Source of the DNA: Alistipes sp.
Lineage (GTDB): Bacteria > Bacteroidota > Bacteroidia > Bacteroidales > Rikenellaceae
Assembly: GCA_017555105.1 (NCBI GenBank)
Contig: JAFZHB010000020.1
Coordinates: 57,167-121,166 of the forward strand
Length of the DNA stretch: 64,000 nt
Direction of reading: 5' to 3'
Made by a program: the position numbers and the translations under genes. Shown here one piece after another: positions 20,222 through 43,935 of this stretch (position 1 is its first letter; each line of letters starts with the position of its first letter). The notes under the pieces were generated by a model, which was given only the letters and a program-made list of their open reading frames with translations, was not told the origin of the DNA and ran no database searches.

Positions 20222-20260
20222 AGGGCTGTTTGACTTTTGTTGAACAGCCCTCTTTTTTTT
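20222..20260 (+). terminator. Terminator of the VOC lipoprotein gene
   Basis: A 9-bp stem AGGGCTGTT/AACAGCCCT (222-230 with 243-251) is followed by C and eight T. Confidence 0.85.
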
Positions 20261-20389: not shown

Positions 20390-20399
20390 CCCCCCCCCC
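20390..20399 (+). repeat. C10 homopolymer tract upstream of a promoter
   Basis: Ten C residues in an otherwise AT-rich stretch, 20 nt upstream of the -33 element at 20420. Such tracts can vary in length by slippage. Apart from this tract and the promoter, I see nothing in 20261-20539. Confidence 0.6.
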
Positions 20400-20419: not shown

Positions 20420-20451
20420 TTTGGTTTGGATACCATATATTTATATCTTTG
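20420..20451 (+). promoter_or_regulatory. Promoter of the peptide/lipoprotein module
   Basis: TTTG (20420-20423), a 20-nt spacer, and TATCTTTG (20444-20451). The leader to the peptide start at 20540 is about 80 nt. Confidence 0.7.
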
Positions 20452-20539: not shown

Positions 20540-20647
20540 ATGATGAAGAATCACTACACAACTCCCGAGGTGGAGGTTATCGACCTGGCCGTAGAGCAGG
20601 GTTTTGCAGCGAGCATGGAGGGCCTTGATGAGATTCCCCTGCCTTAA
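20540..20647 (+). CDS. 35-aa peptide, PEVEV/VEQGFA family
   Basis: ATG ATG start, 35 codons, TAA. The peptide is MMKNHYTTPEVEVIDLAVEQ followed by GFAASMEGLDEIPLP. It has no signal peptide and no membrane segment; the C-terminal half is acidic. A second copy lies at 43825-43935 with the same order: basic start, Tyr, PEVEV, VEQGFA, Ser, acidic tail. Both sit directly upstream of a lipoprotein gene with a fimbrillin-like N-terminal domain, here with a 30-nt spacer. I know no assigned function. It could be a leader peptide acting in translation coupling, a small regulator, or a substrate for processing at the GFA-x-S junction. Confidence 0.7.
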   Translation: MMKNHYTTPEVEVIDLAVEQGFAASMEGLDEIPLP

Positions 20648-20677
20648 CACTACAAATCTAATACGAAACCAAGAGAG

Positions 20678-22360
20678 ATGAAGAAGTTTTTGATTGCAGC
20701 CGCAGCGCTCGTCGCGTTGGTGGGCTGCCAGAAGGATATTACGGTGACCCCGGAGGGTACGATGCCGTCGAGTATCGTTGCTTCGTTTGAGCAGGGCGGT
20801 GCTCGTGTAGCAATTGCTGACGATAATGCGCTGACCTGGACCGCGGGGGATGGATTTACGGTCTTCGACGAGGATTTTACGAAGGAGAAAGCACATTTTG
20901 TGATCGATCCAAACGATGCAGGCAAGGCTTCGGCCCAATTTAATCTGCAGGGTAATAATGTGGTTGAGAACCCCGCTTGTGCCCTCTTCCCGACTACGGC
21001 ACTTTACGAAGGGGGTGAAGGTGACGGGCGCATCGCTATGGAGTTGGCGAACGAGGTAAGCAGCTTCGCCCTGCCGATGGTGGCTGTTACCAATACGCTC
21101 GACCACCTCTCGTTCAAGCACTTGTGTGCGGTATTGCGCGTGCGCCTTACCAACATTCCTGAGGGCTACGATCGCATCGTAGTGAAGTCGTCGGAGTACA
21201 TTGCAGGCCTCTTTACGGCTACGATCGCTGACGCAGAGCCCGTGTTGGCGTATGACACCGATATGGATGAGGGTGTCAAGAAGGTCAGCGTGATGCTGAC
21301 TGACGAAGTTGAGGAGGCGGGTGTTGTCTATATGCCGCTGCCCGTAGGCGACTACGAGTGGCTCAGCATTGCGATCGGCAATGAGACGGAGACGCACGAG
21401 CTGAAGTCGTGGAGCAACCTGGAGGTGAAGCGTGCTAAGATCTACTCCACCTCGCTGGAGCATGCTGAGGTTGCAGACCTGAGTCACATCACAGACAATG
21501 AGGAGCTGGCCGAGGCCTTCGTGGAGGCGGTAAACAACCCCTTCAAGAGCGAGATTAAGCTGCCCGAGGGTGGTCAGCTGGTGCTGACCGAGCCGATTAC
21601 ATTCGGTGCTCCCGTTTCGCGTGCAGCAACGACGACCGAGGGTCGTGAGTTTACGCTCGACCTGAATGGTTGCACGATCAGCCAGGAGCTGACCGAGCTG
21701 ACCACGCTGGAGAATGGAAAGGTTGCTCCGCACGCGCTGATCACGAACCTGGGCAATCTGACGATCATCGACAGCAAGGGTAGTGGTAAGATCGCACTTA
21801 CCTGCACTGCTACGCCGGATCAGTCGGTGGCTGTGAATACGATCAGCAACAAGGGTAACCTCGTGATCAACGGTGGTGAGATCACCAATGTCGGCAAAGG
21901 TGACCAGATTGGCTATGCCATCGACAACTACTGGGGCTCGTCGCTGACGGTGAATGGTGGTACGATCGCTGCAAACGGTAGCATCGCCTACGATGCCATC
22001 CGCCTCTTCTGCAGCAGCACGAACCCGATCAATGTGACTGTCAACGGTGGCGAGATCTCGTCGATCTGGGCACAGAATCCCACAGCAAACAAGGCGACGG
22101 AGGTGCTCGGTACGGTGGTGATCAATGGTGGCACGGCAAAGGTCTACTATGAGCGTTTCACGACCGTGAAAGTGAAGCGTGGCGTTACAACGGCGACGGT
22201 TATCCCCTACGGCGAGGGTAAGGACAATACCCGCACGACCACGGAGGGCGACTACACGGTGTATGGCTTCATCCTGCCGGGCAATGTCTCCAACGCCGAG
22301 GAGTTGGCTGCGGCCGTTGCTGATGCAGATCTCTTACCTATGATAGCGCATCGACGATAA
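20678..22360 (+). CDS. Fimbrillin-like lipoprotein, C-terminus apparently frameshifted
   Basis: A 560-residue lipoprotein: signal peptide MKKFLIAAAALVALVGCQKD with Cys17. The N-terminal domain (about 25-260: ALTWTAGDGFTVFDE, ACALFPTTALYEGG, SFALPMVAV, LSFKHLCAVLRVRL) has the fimbrillin/Mfa-like pattern. A beta-solenoid-like domain follows (about 275-520: FTLDLNGCTISQE, LTIIDSKGSG, LTVNGGTIAANG). The last residues, NAEELAAAVADADLLPMIAHRR, look like the start of another module that breaks off. A shifted frame downstream reads YDSASTISGEIRGDVSKLNE then a stop at 22400, as expected for the true end of such a protein. It is coupled to the peptide gene at 20540 and ends before the terminator at 22426-22460. 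Confidence 0.8.
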   Translation: MKKFLIAAAALVALVGCQKDITVTPEGTMPSSIVASFEQGGARVAIADDNALTWTAGDGFTVFDEDFTKEKAHFVIDPNDAGKASAQFNLQGNNVVENPACALFPTTALYEGGEGDGRIAMELANEVSSFALPMVAVTNTLDHLSFKHLCAVLRVRLTNIPEGYDRIVVKSSEYIAGLFTATIADAEPVLAYDTDMDEGVKKVSVMLTDEVEEAGVVYMPLPVGDYEWLSIAIGNETETHELKSWSNLEVKRAKIYSTSLEHAEVADLSHITDNEELAEAFVEAVNNPFKSEIKLPEGGQLVLTEPITFGAPVSRAATTTEGREFTLDLNGCTISQELTELTTLENGKVAPHALITNLGNLTIIDSKGSGKIALTCTATPDQSVAVNTISNKGNLVINGGEITNVGKGDQIGYAIDNYWGSSLTVNGGTIAANGSIAYDAIRLFCSSTNPINVTVNGGEISSIWAQNPTANKATEVLGTVVINGGTAKVYYERFTTVKVKRGVTTATVIPYGEGKDNTRTTTEGDYTVYGFILPGNVSNAEELAAAVADADLLPMIAHRR

Positions 22361-22425: not shown

Positions 22426-22460
22426 ATCCTTGTTGCTCGTTGAGCAGCAAGGATTTTTTT
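22426..22460 (+). terminator. Terminator of the lipoprotein gene
   Basis: A 13-bp stem (22426-22438 with 22442-22454, one G-U pair), a 3-nt loop and a T-run to 22460. Confidence 0.85.
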
Positions 22461-27855: not shown

Positions 27856-29169
27856 TTATTCATCCTTCACGCAGCGCACCGAGTAGCCATTGGTTTTGAT
27901 GACGGTCGTTATCTCCTCGGCTGTTTGTGAAAATTTCAACGCATAACACTTCATATCGTCAAAACTTGTTGCGCTCATGAGGTAGTTGGTCGTTGTTGGG
28001 TAACTCGGCTCCTCTCCCTCCTTGGGTTTGCAGATTCCGGCAGGTGTAAAGAGATCCGTAACGCCATCGATTCCGATTAAAAGAGTCAGTTCTTCCTTGG
28101 TCGGTAGATGCCAACCATTGGGACAAATCTGCTGCGAAGTGGCTGTTGTATAACTGTAGAGCAAACCAAGCGTTGCGCTCTTTTCTGCCTGCCCTGAGGG
28201 ATACCACACCCCCGTTCCAATCGTAGCACCGGCAGGGAGGTAGCGCAGGTTTTCGGCCATCCACACCTTTCCGCCCAGTGTGCGCGTGGCGTAGCTCTCC
28301 CCGCCCCAGGAAACCGTTGCGGCGTCGCTCGGCGTGTCGGGCGTCGGTTGCTCCTCCGGGGTCTCCTCGCCGCCTCCGATCTCGCCTCCATCTTCCCAAT
28401 CGTCGATCTCACCCGAAAGAAGGAGCACGAGGCGCTCGTTTTCGATCTTTGCATGCACTTTATAGGACTTTCCGCCGAGCAGCTCGGCCTCGATCTGCTT
28501 CGTATAGCGCTTGTTGTCGTCGGTCGTCACCACCAACTCAAAGGTTGTCGACTGCGGCACCAAGATCGCCTCATAGCACGCCGTTGCGGCCTTCAGAGTC
28601 ACCTCACTCGCCGCAACACCGCTCTTGGGCGTGGCGGTCAATTGTGCCCAATCGAGCGTGGCTGTCGGAATCACCCCTCCGAGCGAGACCGAGGCAACAC
28701 GCATCGTCTCCTCGTGCTGCACCTCCACCTGCAGGCGTGTCATCAGGTGGCGAAAAGTCATCTGCACGGCCTGCTCCGTGGGCCTCACGCCCATCCGCAA
28801 CGCACCCAAGAGATCCGACTCCTCGTAGCCCAGCGTCTGGTCGGTGGCGATGCTCCACTCCGTGGGGAAGCCCGACGGATCATACGGATAATAGGCCGCC
28901 AGCGTCGCCTCATCTTGGTTGGCATACCACACCAACTCGGCGGCCGAGAAGGTCGAACCATCGTAGATGAGCGGGGCATTCTCCTTGTAGCGCTCCGTGC
29001 CGCGATCGATGCGCAGACCGATGCCGTCACCAGGCTCAAAGTTGAGAGCCGTTGCTCGCGCTGCTATGGTCGGCGCAATGGTGAGGTGAGCCGTCAGGGA
29101 AGCCTCCTTCGTGCAAGCGGCAACAAAAATCCCAAACACCACGCCCATCCAAGTAAGGGTTCTTTTCAT
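27856..29169 (-). CDS. Lipoprotein with fimbrillin-like and FISUMP domains
   Basis: About 437 residues starting at ATG 29169 (MKRTLTWMGVVFGIFVAACTKE, lipobox VAAC); the longer frame from 29205 is poorly supported. An N-terminal fimbrillin/Mfa-like domain spans about 25-255 (FEPGDGIGLRID, AAYYPYDPSGFP, QMTFRHLMTRLQVEV, YEAILVPQSTTFELVV). A Glu/Pro/Gly-rich linker (EDGGEIGGGEETPEEQPTPD) follows. The C-terminal FISUMP domain (about 290-437) contains GKVWMAENLRYLP, ICPNGWHLPTKEELTLL and the ending YSVRCVKDE. It is probably a surface or fimbria-tip protein. Unlike the other fimbrillin-like genes here it has no small peptide gene upstream. Confidence 0.85.
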   Translation of the reverse strand: MKRTLTWMGVVFGIFVAACTKEASLTAHLTIAPTIAARATALNFEPGDGIGLRIDRGTERYKENAPLIYDGSTFSAAELVWYANQDEATLAAYYPYDPSGFPTEWSIATDQTLGYEESDLLGALRMGVRPTEQAVQMTFRHLMTRLQVEVQHEETMRVASVSLGGVIPTATLDWAQLTATPKSGVAASEVTLKAATACYEAILVPQSTTFELVVTTDDNKRYTKQIEAELLGGKSYKVHAKIENERLVLLLSGEIDDWEDGGEIGGGEETPEEQPTPDTPSDAATVSWGGESYATRTLGGKVWMAENLRYLPAGATIGTGVWYPSGQAEKSATLGLLYSYTTATSQQICPNGWHLPTKEELTLLIGIDGVTDLFTPAGICKPKEGEEPSYPTTTNYLMSATSFDDMKCYALKFSQTAEEITTVIKTNGYSVRCVKDE

Positions 29170-36116: not shown

Positions 36117-36225
36117 TACAAAGAACTATATTTTTTTCATTTTTTTCTGTATTTAATTCGATAGGGGAGGTTGGATGGGGTGTTGATTAGGGTGGCGAGT
36201 GGTAAGGGAAGAGCGACCTATCGGG

Positions 36226-36276
36226 TGCTAAAAACGAAGATCACCCCTGCCGGAACTGCTCCGATAGGGGTGATGT
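36226..36276 (-). terminator. Terminator of the LacI-type regulator gene
   Basis: ATCACCCCT (36240-36248) pairs with AGGGGTGAT (36266-36274); on the minus strand it is followed by CTTCGTTTTTA. Confidence 0.7.
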
Positions 36277-36300
36277 TATTTATAAATAGAGGTGTTGGAA

Positions 36301-37383
36301 CTATTTTCCCTCCACAAATGCGATGTCGCTGAACTCTTGGTAGAGATCCACATTCTCGCGCATGATGATATCGAGCGGCATGATGTATCCGCCTTGGTCC
36401 TTGGTGCCGTAAATCAGCGCCTGGATCAGGGTCTTGACGCCGAGATAACCTTGCTGCTCGGGGCGCTGACCCATCAAGAAATCGATTCGGCCGGCCTTCA
36501 GTGCGCGGATGTTGCTGTCGGTGAGGTCGATACCGATCAACTTGACTCCGTTGATGTGGTGACGCTCGAAGTAGTTGGCAATGACGCTGGCACGCGAGTT
36601 GAGCACCAAAGCGCCGCGCACCTCGGGGTGCTCCTCGAAGTAGTTGCCGATCAACGCTTCGTTGCGCTCCGGATCGCCTACCGAGAAGGAGAGGCGATGG
36701 AGGTTGGTGTGCAAATTGGCCTCCTGCAGATAGGTCATCAAACCCTGTTTTCGCAGGATGGTGGTGTTGGCGCTGGCATCGCCGACGCGCTCGGTCTGGA
36801 AAAGCACAAAGTGGGAATCCGCAGGGGTGATCATGTCGATCAGTTTGCCCATGAGGTAGCCGCACTGGTAGAGGTTGGCTGCAAAACAAGCCATCGGGAA
36901 GGTGTACTCGATTTGCGAATCGACATAGATGTAGGGGATGTTTTTCTCCTCTAGGATGTTCGTCAGGAAGACCGTCTCGTCGCGGAAGGTAGGACCGATG
37001 ATCACGCCGTCGACCGCCATTTCCGAAATCTCCTTGAATACGGAGCGACACGAGTAGAGATCGAACTGATTGTAGTACATAAACTTACAATCGATGTTGA
37101 TGTGCTCGAATACGCTCATGGCGCGTTTTACGCCTTTGTGGAAGCTCGCCCAATACTCGCCCGCTTCAAATTCGGGAACGGTGACCACCAACTTATACGA
37201 GCGACGCAACGAGATACTGGAAAGGTGGATGTTCGGTTGGTAGTTCACCTCCTTCAGTACAGCGTCGATGGCTTGGCGGGCAGAGGGGGATACATTCCCT
37301 CGGTTGTGCAGCACACGGTCGACCGTACCCGGCGAAATGCCTGCCATTTGGGCGATATCTTTGATGCGAATTTTCTTGGCCAT
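36301..37383 (-). CDS. LacI family transcriptional regulator
   Basis: 360 residues. The N-terminal helix-turn-helix and hinge are classical (IKDIAQMAGISPGTVDRVLHNRGNVSPSARQAI). A periplasmic-binding-protein-like sensor domain follows (about 62-360, with VDGVIIGPTFRDE, IPYIYVDSQIE, NANTT-like DASANTTILRKQGL, VKLIGIDLTDSN). It probably responds to a sugar. No transport or enzyme genes lie next to it, so its targets are elsewhere; the CTGTGT-N4-ACACAG palindromes at 13.5 and 19.0 kb are a possible but unproven target. Promoter at 37409-37439. Confidence 0.92.
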   Translation of the reverse strand: MAKKIRIKDIAQMAGISPGTVDRVLHNRGNVSPSARQAIDAVLKEVNYQPNIHLSSISLRRSYKLVVTVPEFEAGEYWASFHKGVKRAMSVFEHINIDCKFMYYNQFDLYSCRSVFKEISEMAVDGVIIGPTFRDETVFLTNILEEKNIPYIYVDSQIEYTFPMACFAANLYQCGYLMGKLIDMITPADSHFVLFQTERVGDASANTTILRKQGLMTYLQEANLHTNLHRLSFSVGDPERNEALIGNYFEEHPEVRGALVLNSRASVIANYFERHHINGVKLIGIDLTDSNIRALKAGRIDFLMGQRPEQQGYLGVKTLIQALIYGTKDQGGYIMPLDIIMRENVDLYQEFSDIAFVEGK

Positions 37384-43513: not shown

Positions 43514-43824
43514 TAGTACCGAGTGGAAAAGTCTGCTCGGTGACATATTACGAAAGTGTTTTTCGCTTTTGTCCTCAAATGAAAATGTGGCAATTTTCAA
43601 CGAAGAAAGGACGAACGAACAGCACTCATTTCTTGTATAGCTATGTGTGGCTATGCGCTTTGTCGCATATACCCTCATACTATCCAAGTGTGGGGTATTG
43701 CATCGTTTGTTTTCTTCGGGTTCGCCACAACCTTCATTTGAACAGACGAAAATCAGCTCCACACTTTCTGTTTTTGTAAATCACCGTCAGGAGGAGTTGA
43801 GGCGGTAACCTAAACTTTTTGACG

Positions 43825-43935
43825 ATGAAAAAGGTTTGTTATGAGGTACCTGAAGTCGAGGTATTGAATGTGATGGTTGAACAAGGCTTTGCCGGTTCGC
43901 AGTTGGAGAGTCCTGAAGAGGGAGAGTTCGATTAA
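43825..43935 (+). CDS. 36-aa peptide, PEVEV/VEQGFA family
   Basis: ATG to TAA, 36 residues: MKKVCYEVPEVEVLNVMVEQ then GFAGSQLESPEEGEFD. It shares Lys/Tyr at the start, PEVEV, VEQGFA and a Ser-containing acidic tail with the peptide at 20540-20647. The downstream lipoprotein starts 13 nt after its stop. No signal peptide, no transmembrane segment. Function unknown; the conserved pairing with fimbrillin-like lipoproteins is the only clue. Confidence 0.72.
   Translation: MKKVCYEVPEVEVLNVMVEQGFAGSQLESPEEGEFD

Follow-up and report, generated by a model that had tools for sequence, protein, structure and literature searches.

The linear polyphosphorylated peptides (LPP) of Popov et al. (2026, Nat Commun 17:6633, PMC13381572) are the closest described counterpart of the locus analysed here. 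In the parts of that report drawn on here, LPP is stated to be restricted to Bacillota, with a biological role that its authors state is unknown. The precursors carry a Y-x2-P leader (consensus YxxPxVLxHQxIxFETxxS), a protease cleaves after the leader with the help of a RiPP recognition element (RRE), and multiple phosphates are placed on one Ser of the core, while a Ser-to-Thr change in the Bacillota peptide is not phosphorylated. The same authors report capsule loci as a neighbourhood of these genes in Bacillota and describe a patchy pattern there that is typical of conflict genes (PMC13381572). Two further groups of systems are comparable. Paeninodin-type lasso peptides, as far as the sources used here describe them, have a [Y/W]-x2-P leader and are tailored by an HprK kinase and an NTP transferase. 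RiPP clusters reported from Bacteroidales in 2023 (PMC10352776) share with our system the order and the possession of precursor peptides, but the available part of that report describes radical-SAM or YcaO clusters with GG leaders and C39 exporters, and the word Alistipes occurs 0 times in it.

Compared with the available description of LPP, the system described here has the same discrete RRE (with Asn and Asp), HprK-like kinase, archaeal-type signal-peptidase-like protease (Ser/His/Asp) and MsbA-like transporter, and its peptides likewise combine a Y-x2-P leader with a variable tail. It differs in its host (Bacteroidales, whereas LPP belongs to Bacillota), in having precursors that are dispersed (up to 20 hits per genome) and paired with lipoprotein genes, and in the RNA leader that precedes some units. 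The stretch after YxxP is also different, being E-x-G-[FIY]-x2-[S/T] in 144/145 peptides and not HQxIxFETxxS, and the junction residue is Thr in 21/144, which the Bacillota kinase did not accept. Because of this later consensus and the junction Thr, we do not claim membership of LPP and say only that the system probably works like it. Since the LPP gene set is present, bar one enzyme not seen in the window's own genus, we regard the short ORF as most likely the precursor of an LPP-like RiPP (a ribosomally made and processed peptide), which would be bound by the RRE, phosphorylated, cut and exported, and would work with its lipoprotein.

Two peptide-lipoprotein units in the window

The window (the whole stretch of DNA that was analysed, 64,000 nucleotides of an Alistipes sp. 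contig) comes from a genome of 1.77 Mb that is 86% complete. It contains two units with the following features.

20222 to 20251, plus strand: terminator-like hairpin of the gene upstream of unit 1, a 13-pair stem then a T run (pattern match only)
20420 to 20451, plus strand: Bacteroides-type -33/-7 promoter match of unit 1, exact TTTG-N20-TANNTTTG (TTTG, 20 nt, TATATCTTTG)
20540 to 20647, plus strand: putative precursor peptide 1, 35 aa (ORF, translation, pairwise and profile comparison)
20678 to 22360, plus strand: lipoprotein of unit 1, 560 aa, with signal peptide and lipobox Cys17
22426 to 22454, plus strand: terminator-like hairpin closing unit 1, a 13-pair stem then a T run (pattern match only)
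43537 to 43825, plus strand: structured RNA leader of unit 2, ending at the start codon of peptide 2 (covariance model, covariation)
43825 to 43935, plus strand: putative precursor peptide 2, 36 aa
43949 to 46825, plus strand: lipoprotein of unit 2, 958 aa, with BspA-type leucine-rich repeats (LRR_5, 2.8e-139)

A sequence-only reading of this DNA had reported a 35-codon ORF with a promoter directly before a lipoprotein gene, and a related 36-codon ORF before a second lipoprotein, and both observations hold at these coordinates. In peptide 1, residues 1 to about 25 form the conserved leader with Y-x2-P and E-x-G-F-A-x-S, and the remainder is a variable tail. A gap of 30 nt separates this ORF from the lipoprotein start at 20678, where the encoded signal sequence is MKKFLIAAAALVALVGC. 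In the Pfam scan the unit-1 lipoprotein reached LPAM_1 below the cut-off, and it showed no curated domain. The promoter pattern was found 4 times in the window against 0.42 expected by chance, and terminator-like hairpins 4 times in the region against 2.3 expected. With its promoter match, peptide, lipoprotein and terminator-like hairpin, unit 1 resembles a transcription unit that is complete in itself.

Some smaller features surround this unit. A run of ten C lies at 20390-20399, some 20 nt before the -33 box; such homopolymer tracts can change length and switch expression. A G run is also found upstream of the peptide in L009, and L010 has a tandem repeat with a 15-nt period upstream of its peptide. 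By eye, the C-terminus of the unit-1 lipoprotein appears shortened at 22290-22360, stopping shortly after the apparent start of a second NEELAEA-like segment.

In unit 2 the gap between peptide and lipoprotein is 13 nt, and the lipoprotein has a signal and a lipobox Cys. Peptides 1 and 2 share 15 identities over 25 aligned residues (E 1e-9 for that single comparison). The resemblance is not a chance match, because the genome holds 11 members of the family and 11/11 stand before a lipoprotein.

A conserved leader, a variable tail and a lipoprotein next door

A genome search gave the 11 members of the peptide family, and a profile run at E up to 10 returned the same 11. Relatives outside this genome, the first thing that the sequence-only reading had proposed to look for, are present in the genus, family and order samples. 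Members were found in 54/61 genomes of the genus (profile, E<=0.01), with up to 20 hits per genome, and in 53/120 genomes and 7/22 genera of the family (profile, E<=0.001); the 120 include 32 genomes of the window's genus, of which 21/32 have the peptide and 11/32 have none. In the order, a first profile matched 6/198 genomes, the window's own included, and a broader 45-sequence profile matched 12/295, while the first profile run across 247 genomes of the phylum matched the window's genome alone. From these counts we conclude that the peptides have their centre in the taxonomic family to which the window belongs and are thin beyond it. The finding goes further than first described; the earlier reading had noticed neither the 11-member size of the family, nor the machinery discussed below, nor the structured RNA ahead of copy 2.

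Scanning named genomes with a sequence pattern turned up 15 loci, all in MAG records that bear the titles Alistipes, Bacteroides, Bacteroidaceae, Prevotellaceae, Bacteroidales and, in one case, Lachnospira. The last of these (L052) carries two peptide-lipoprotein units; Lachnospira is a Bacillota genus, and the contig reflects either mislabelling or transfer. The two window peptides have zero matches above cut-off in Pfam and NCBIfam, a set of 45 members has scattered weak matches only, and a PDB search gave no relative. Weak matches to the paeninodin lasso model were obtained for 3/45 peptides, the best at E 0.0078. A relative with another core (MKKYVAPTINVVELEVEGLIALSGGG...) lies at 9100-9267 of L373 in a genome (G704) where PqqD and kinase were searched and neither was found, and it could be part of a broader group of Bacteroidales peptides with Y-x2-P.

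In 144/145 distinct peptides, Y-x2-P is followed after 8-11 residues by E-x-G-[FIY]-x-x and then by Ser (123/144) or Thr (21/144), and the consensus of the first ~25 residues is Y-x2-P-x-[VLI]-E-V...E-x-G-[FI]-A-x-[S/T]. The tail that follows has a median length of 17 residues (range 0-52) and consists of 27% Asp plus Glu, 16% Gly and 2% Lys plus Arg, with Cys rounding to zero; Trp is found within the last four tail residues in 84/144 peptides. For 30 non-overlapping close pairs from 140 genes, leader pN is 0.156 against a pS of 0.438, giving a dN/dS of 0.27, a low value that is favoured by the choice of pairs by leader similarity. Tail pN is 0.411 and pS 0.750 (saturated), so that the tail is more variable than the leader, and one pair from the same genome (L067/L127) has zero replacements in the leader against 20 in the tails. 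The excess of synonymous change that the earlier reading had suggested as a check is therefore found in the conserved part.

The same is true of a consistent lipoprotein neighbour. Using one detector throughout, which accepts lipoprotein genes that begin between -40 and +250 nt from the stop codon of the peptide, we found a lipoprotein after the peptide in 11/11 cases in the window's genome and, in other genomes, after 123/132 distinct peptides for which 300 nt or more of downstream sequence was available. The figure of 132 is obtained after duplicates between two locus sets were removed and 2/134 peptides lacked 300 nt downstream; before the sets were merged the values were 76/83 and 59/61. 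The 60 regions behind the second set come from hits that the genus and family searches listed for ten genomes, and they were picked regardless of their neighbours. Some listed hits were left out (for example, a hit in G112 and another close to the end of a contig in G141), and the listing did not include every hit of these genomes. As controls, the detector accepted 223/3000 random positions in the same loci and 61/1226 short frames in the window (5-7%). The gap between peptide and lipoprotein has a median of 20.5 nt, and 132/134 gaps lie within -40 to 65 nt. With relatives outside the genome, synonymous excess in the conserved part and a lipoprotein neighbour, the proposal of a conserved two-gene unit was right.

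Nine peptides have no detected lipoprotein neighbour (L023, L034, L064, L089, L092, L094, L096, L151 and L158); in L092 the ORF that follows resembles a lipoprotein with a start that escaped the detector, and in L094 the next gene is the kinase. Lipoproteins also exist without the peptide: two of the 11 window ORFs marked by the detector carry it. One lipoprotein at 27856-29169 (minus strand), fimbrillin-like by eye, has no peptide of the family in front. Two tandem peptide genes precede a single lipoprotein in L116 (G020:C7:359428-363326).

The term fimbrillin-like, which the sequence-only reading applied to both lipoproteins, survives in part. It agrees with the match of Mfa_like_1 (PF13149) above cut-off in 2/10 scanned partners of related peptides (L062, L065), but neither lipoprotein of the window matches a fimbrillin family in Pfam, and that of copy 2 is an LRR_5 protein. 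Some partners match the Mfa/FimA-type fimbrillins or the BspA leucine-rich-repeat lipoproteins, while most of the scanned partners match neither above cut-off. The partners are diverse and several are large, with LRR_5, CBM26 and Mfa_like_1 domains. No peptide-lipoprotein pairing was found in literature titles and abstract openings, the depth to which the fimbrillin literature was covered.

Recognition, kinase, protease and exporter genes

We take the leader of these peptides to resemble lasso leaders, and because of this resemblance and the weak paeninodin matches of 3/45 members we searched for a PqqD-type recognition element. In the window's genome, PqqD lies beside recQ (L210), and the exporter, kinase and protease lie side by side (L325); in this genus the operon does not adjoin PqqD and there is no NTP transferase beside it. 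By eye, in 8 genomes of the genus (L210-L217), pqqD stands between recQ and TonB-receptor-like and heavy-metal-binding-like genes. In other genera the PqqD neighbourhoods contain an ABC exporter, an HprK-like kinase, a signal-peptidase-like protease and, in some, an NTP transferase. The latter, an enzyme that LPP also has in the available description, is found beside the operon in g3, g11 and g14 and in other families, and was not seen there in g1, g16 and g20. In some distant genomes the peptide itself joins the cluster: a genome of family f20 (G641) has, in a row, a diverged peptide, lipoprotein, kinase, protease, PqqD, NTP transferase and exporter, and in G188 the peptide directly precedes kinase, protease, PqqD, NTP transferase and exporter. 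The linkage is looser in G669. As a separate observation, peptide or machinery genes lie beside genes that by eye are Wza/Wzc-like polysaccharide export genes in some other families (L285, L291, L370).

Catalytic and recognition residues are conserved in the distinct relatives selected by BLAST. PqqD, which matches PF05402 above cut-off and is usually present once per genome, has Asn35 and Asp73 in 71/71; these are candidate counterparts of the LppB residues N33 and D70, which hold the leader Pro and Tyr in the available description of LPP, an equivalence inferred from spacing. A PDB search with PqqD gave chance-level hits plus a lasso RRE at E 0.2. The protease, whose motifs in the window's genome are GNSMRP, HILHRI and GDGN, keeps the Ser motif in 56/56, the His motif in 48/56 and GD[GA] in 55/56, and it matches TIGR02228 at 5.4e-8, below cut-off. 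The kinase P-loop is present in 51/51, and the kinase of L254 matches TIGR04352 (1.7e-5) and Hpr_kinase_C (0.014), both below cut-off. The NTP transferase of the same locus matches PF14907 (1e-38), and the exporter of L248 matches ABC_tran above cut-off and MsbA at 8.6e-82, below the curated cut-off.

These neighbourhoods bear on the idea that the ORF encodes a true lasso peptide precursor. Its Y-x2-P leader and the weak paeninodin matches would suit such a precursor, but the place that B2 occupies in lasso clusters is taken here by a signal-peptidase-like protease, inspection by eye of the ORFs listed beside the machinery recognised neither a cyclase nor a B2 protease, and the tail is acidic and presumably linear. 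Because of the different protease and the lack of a recognised cyclase in the machinery loci, we did not adopt the lasso label, which hardly seems credible for this family.

To assess the agreement between the distributions of these genes, we tabulated the 120 family genomes as both, first only, second only and neither, with PqqD counted above cut-off (the match in G107, borderline and below cut-off, was counted absent). The values are 51/2/4/63 for peptide with stand-alone PqqD (6 discordant, Fisher 1.7e-26) and 51/2/3/64 for peptide with HprK-like kinase (5 discordant, Fisher 1.2e-27), although these Fisher values overstate independence because the genomes are related. PqqD with kinase gives 54/1/0/65, the 54/120 genomes found with the kinase profile being the PqqD set above cut-off minus one incomplete genome. 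Counted by genus, the kinase is present in 7/7 peptide genera against 1/15 others (p 4.7e-5). All discordant genomes except one are less than 70% complete: G090 (54% complete) and G165 (59%) have the peptide without PqqD or kinase, G111 (68%), G137 (69%) and the exception G098 (99%) have PqqD and kinase without the peptide, and G074 (57%) has PqqD alone.

Within the 61-genome sample of the genus, 6/7 peptide-negative genomes also lack PqqD (p 8.7e-7), the exceptions being G045, with PqqD and no peptide, and G036, with the peptide and no PqqD. In the family sample, 10 genomes of the same genus have none of the three genes for peptide, PqqD and kinase. Across the order, PqqD is not discriminating (7/9 peptide-positive against 13/22 peptide-negative genomes). 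Strong kinase hits (E < 1e-60) occur in 8/12 peptide-positive genomes against 8/283 others, and hits at 1e-5 in 9/12 against 55/283. Of the eight genomes with a strong kinase hit and no peptide hit, G641 holds the diverged peptide (E 0.012), and in the stretches inspected of the other 7 no candidate peptide was recognised.

Shared descent inflates such co-occurrence, and the 35-aa ORF has no evident signal peptide. Both points would suit a peptide that stays in the cytoplasm as a small chaperone or regulator of the lipoprotein and has nothing to do with the machinery, the two being merely inherited together. We consider this very improbable, given the kinase kept in all 7 peptide genera, the 10 genomes of the same genus in which the three genes are absent together, the direct clusters in other families and the recognition residues that are invariant in 71/71. 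The sequence-only reading had left the role of the peptide among leader, regulator, chaperone and processed signal; since the family co-occurs, and in some distant genomes clusters, with a recognition element, kinase, protease and exporter, the evidence favours a processed and exported peptide.

The individual steps of the LPP-like pathway (binding, phosphorylation, cleavage and export) are ones that we infer from the genes and motifs. The conserved first ~25 residues would serve as the leader, bound by the stand-alone PqqD-type recognition element. The HprK-like kinase may phosphorylate the Ser or Thr at the junction of leader and tail, for which the conserved S/T is the candidate, the signal-peptidase-like Ser/His protease would take the leader off, and the MsbA-like ABC exporter would carry the acidic, Gly-rich tail out of the cytoplasm. 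Once outside, the tail may act with the lipoprotein of the next gene, most simply as its cognate ligand or as a maturation factor; this last step is a guess that could equally turn out right or wrong.

The same biochemistry and the same machinery evidence would serve a secreted antimicrobial or signal, with the lipoprotein as its immunity protein or receptor. One lipoprotein per peptide, the hypervariable tails, the absence of the peptide system from 7/61 and 11/32 genomes of the window's genus and the patchy conflict-gene pattern described for Bacillota LPP are consistent with this. Immunity proteins are typically small, though, unlike several of these large and diverse partners (LRR_5, CBM26, Mfa_like_1), and up to 20 copies per genome fit a standing programme at the cell surface better than a single weapon, so that we hold the antimicrobial or signal role to be unlikely.

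An RNA leader before some units

A leader of ~290 nt is common to 5/11 units of the window's genome (L002, L003, L004, L007 and L008, the last being copy 2 of the window) and ends within 20 nt of the peptide start in all five. Among these five sequences both partners have changed in 19/76 pairs; shuffles give 8.9 such pairs and slid structures 1-4. The leader of unit 2 scores 289 bits, and this sequence (L008) is itself one of the five from which the model was built. The covariance model also matches in other genomes, across three genera (L063, L122 and L142 are among the carriers), and 18/19 matches at E<=1e-9 end -2 to 52 nt from the peptide start, the exception being L065. With 19 sequences, 46/76 pairs are changed on both sides against 24.0 in shuffles and 13-20 in slid structures, in an alignment that was fitted to the structure. 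An alignment made free of structure recovered the central stem, with 15/21 pairs covarying, and did not recover the outer and inner helices. Over the window, Rfam at gathering gave tRNA only, and at E up to 1 it gave only a chance-level hit outside the leader and no credible match to it.

A structured leader before a subset of units, together with the small distance between peptide and lipoprotein (median 20.5 nt), could suggest that the ORF is a cis-acting leader peptide, with synthesis of the lipoprotein controlled by translation of the ORF or by stalling on it. The amino-acid sequence of the leader part is under selection, however, the distance from the conserved part to the stop codon varies widely (tail of 0-52 residues), and a cis role does not predict co-occurrence with PqqD and kinase. 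The attenuator or stalling peptide was set aside because of this variable distance and the enzyme co-occurrence, and we give it very little credence.

Returning to the LPP-like precursor, a broader picture can be drawn tentatively, and we think it somewhat more likely to fail than to hold. Bacteroidales may have a genome-wide surface programme built on a single LPP-type machine for maturation and export, which would handle up to about 20 dispersed precursors. Each of these would yield a distinct phosphopeptide as the cognate ligand or activator of the adjoining lipoprotein, and a subset would be switched by the previously undescribed RNA leader. The LPP-like reading would move LPP chemistry from Bacillota to Bacteroidales, would turn short and easily missed ORFs into readable precursors and would give a poorly understood peptide family a testable job. 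The precursor-lipoprotein layout lets the role of LPP be asked directly, through deletion of a member of the pair or of the recognition element, and the structured RNA leader may show when some of the proteins are produced.

Copy 1 gave no leader match with the covariance model in the window. Apart from unit 2, the window matches are weak, one on the reverse strand of the palindromic stretch of unit 2 and one at 36224-36327 (E 0.018). In 85 further loci the model found just a copy of one of the genome's own units and two weak hits, of which the one in L332 precedes another gene.
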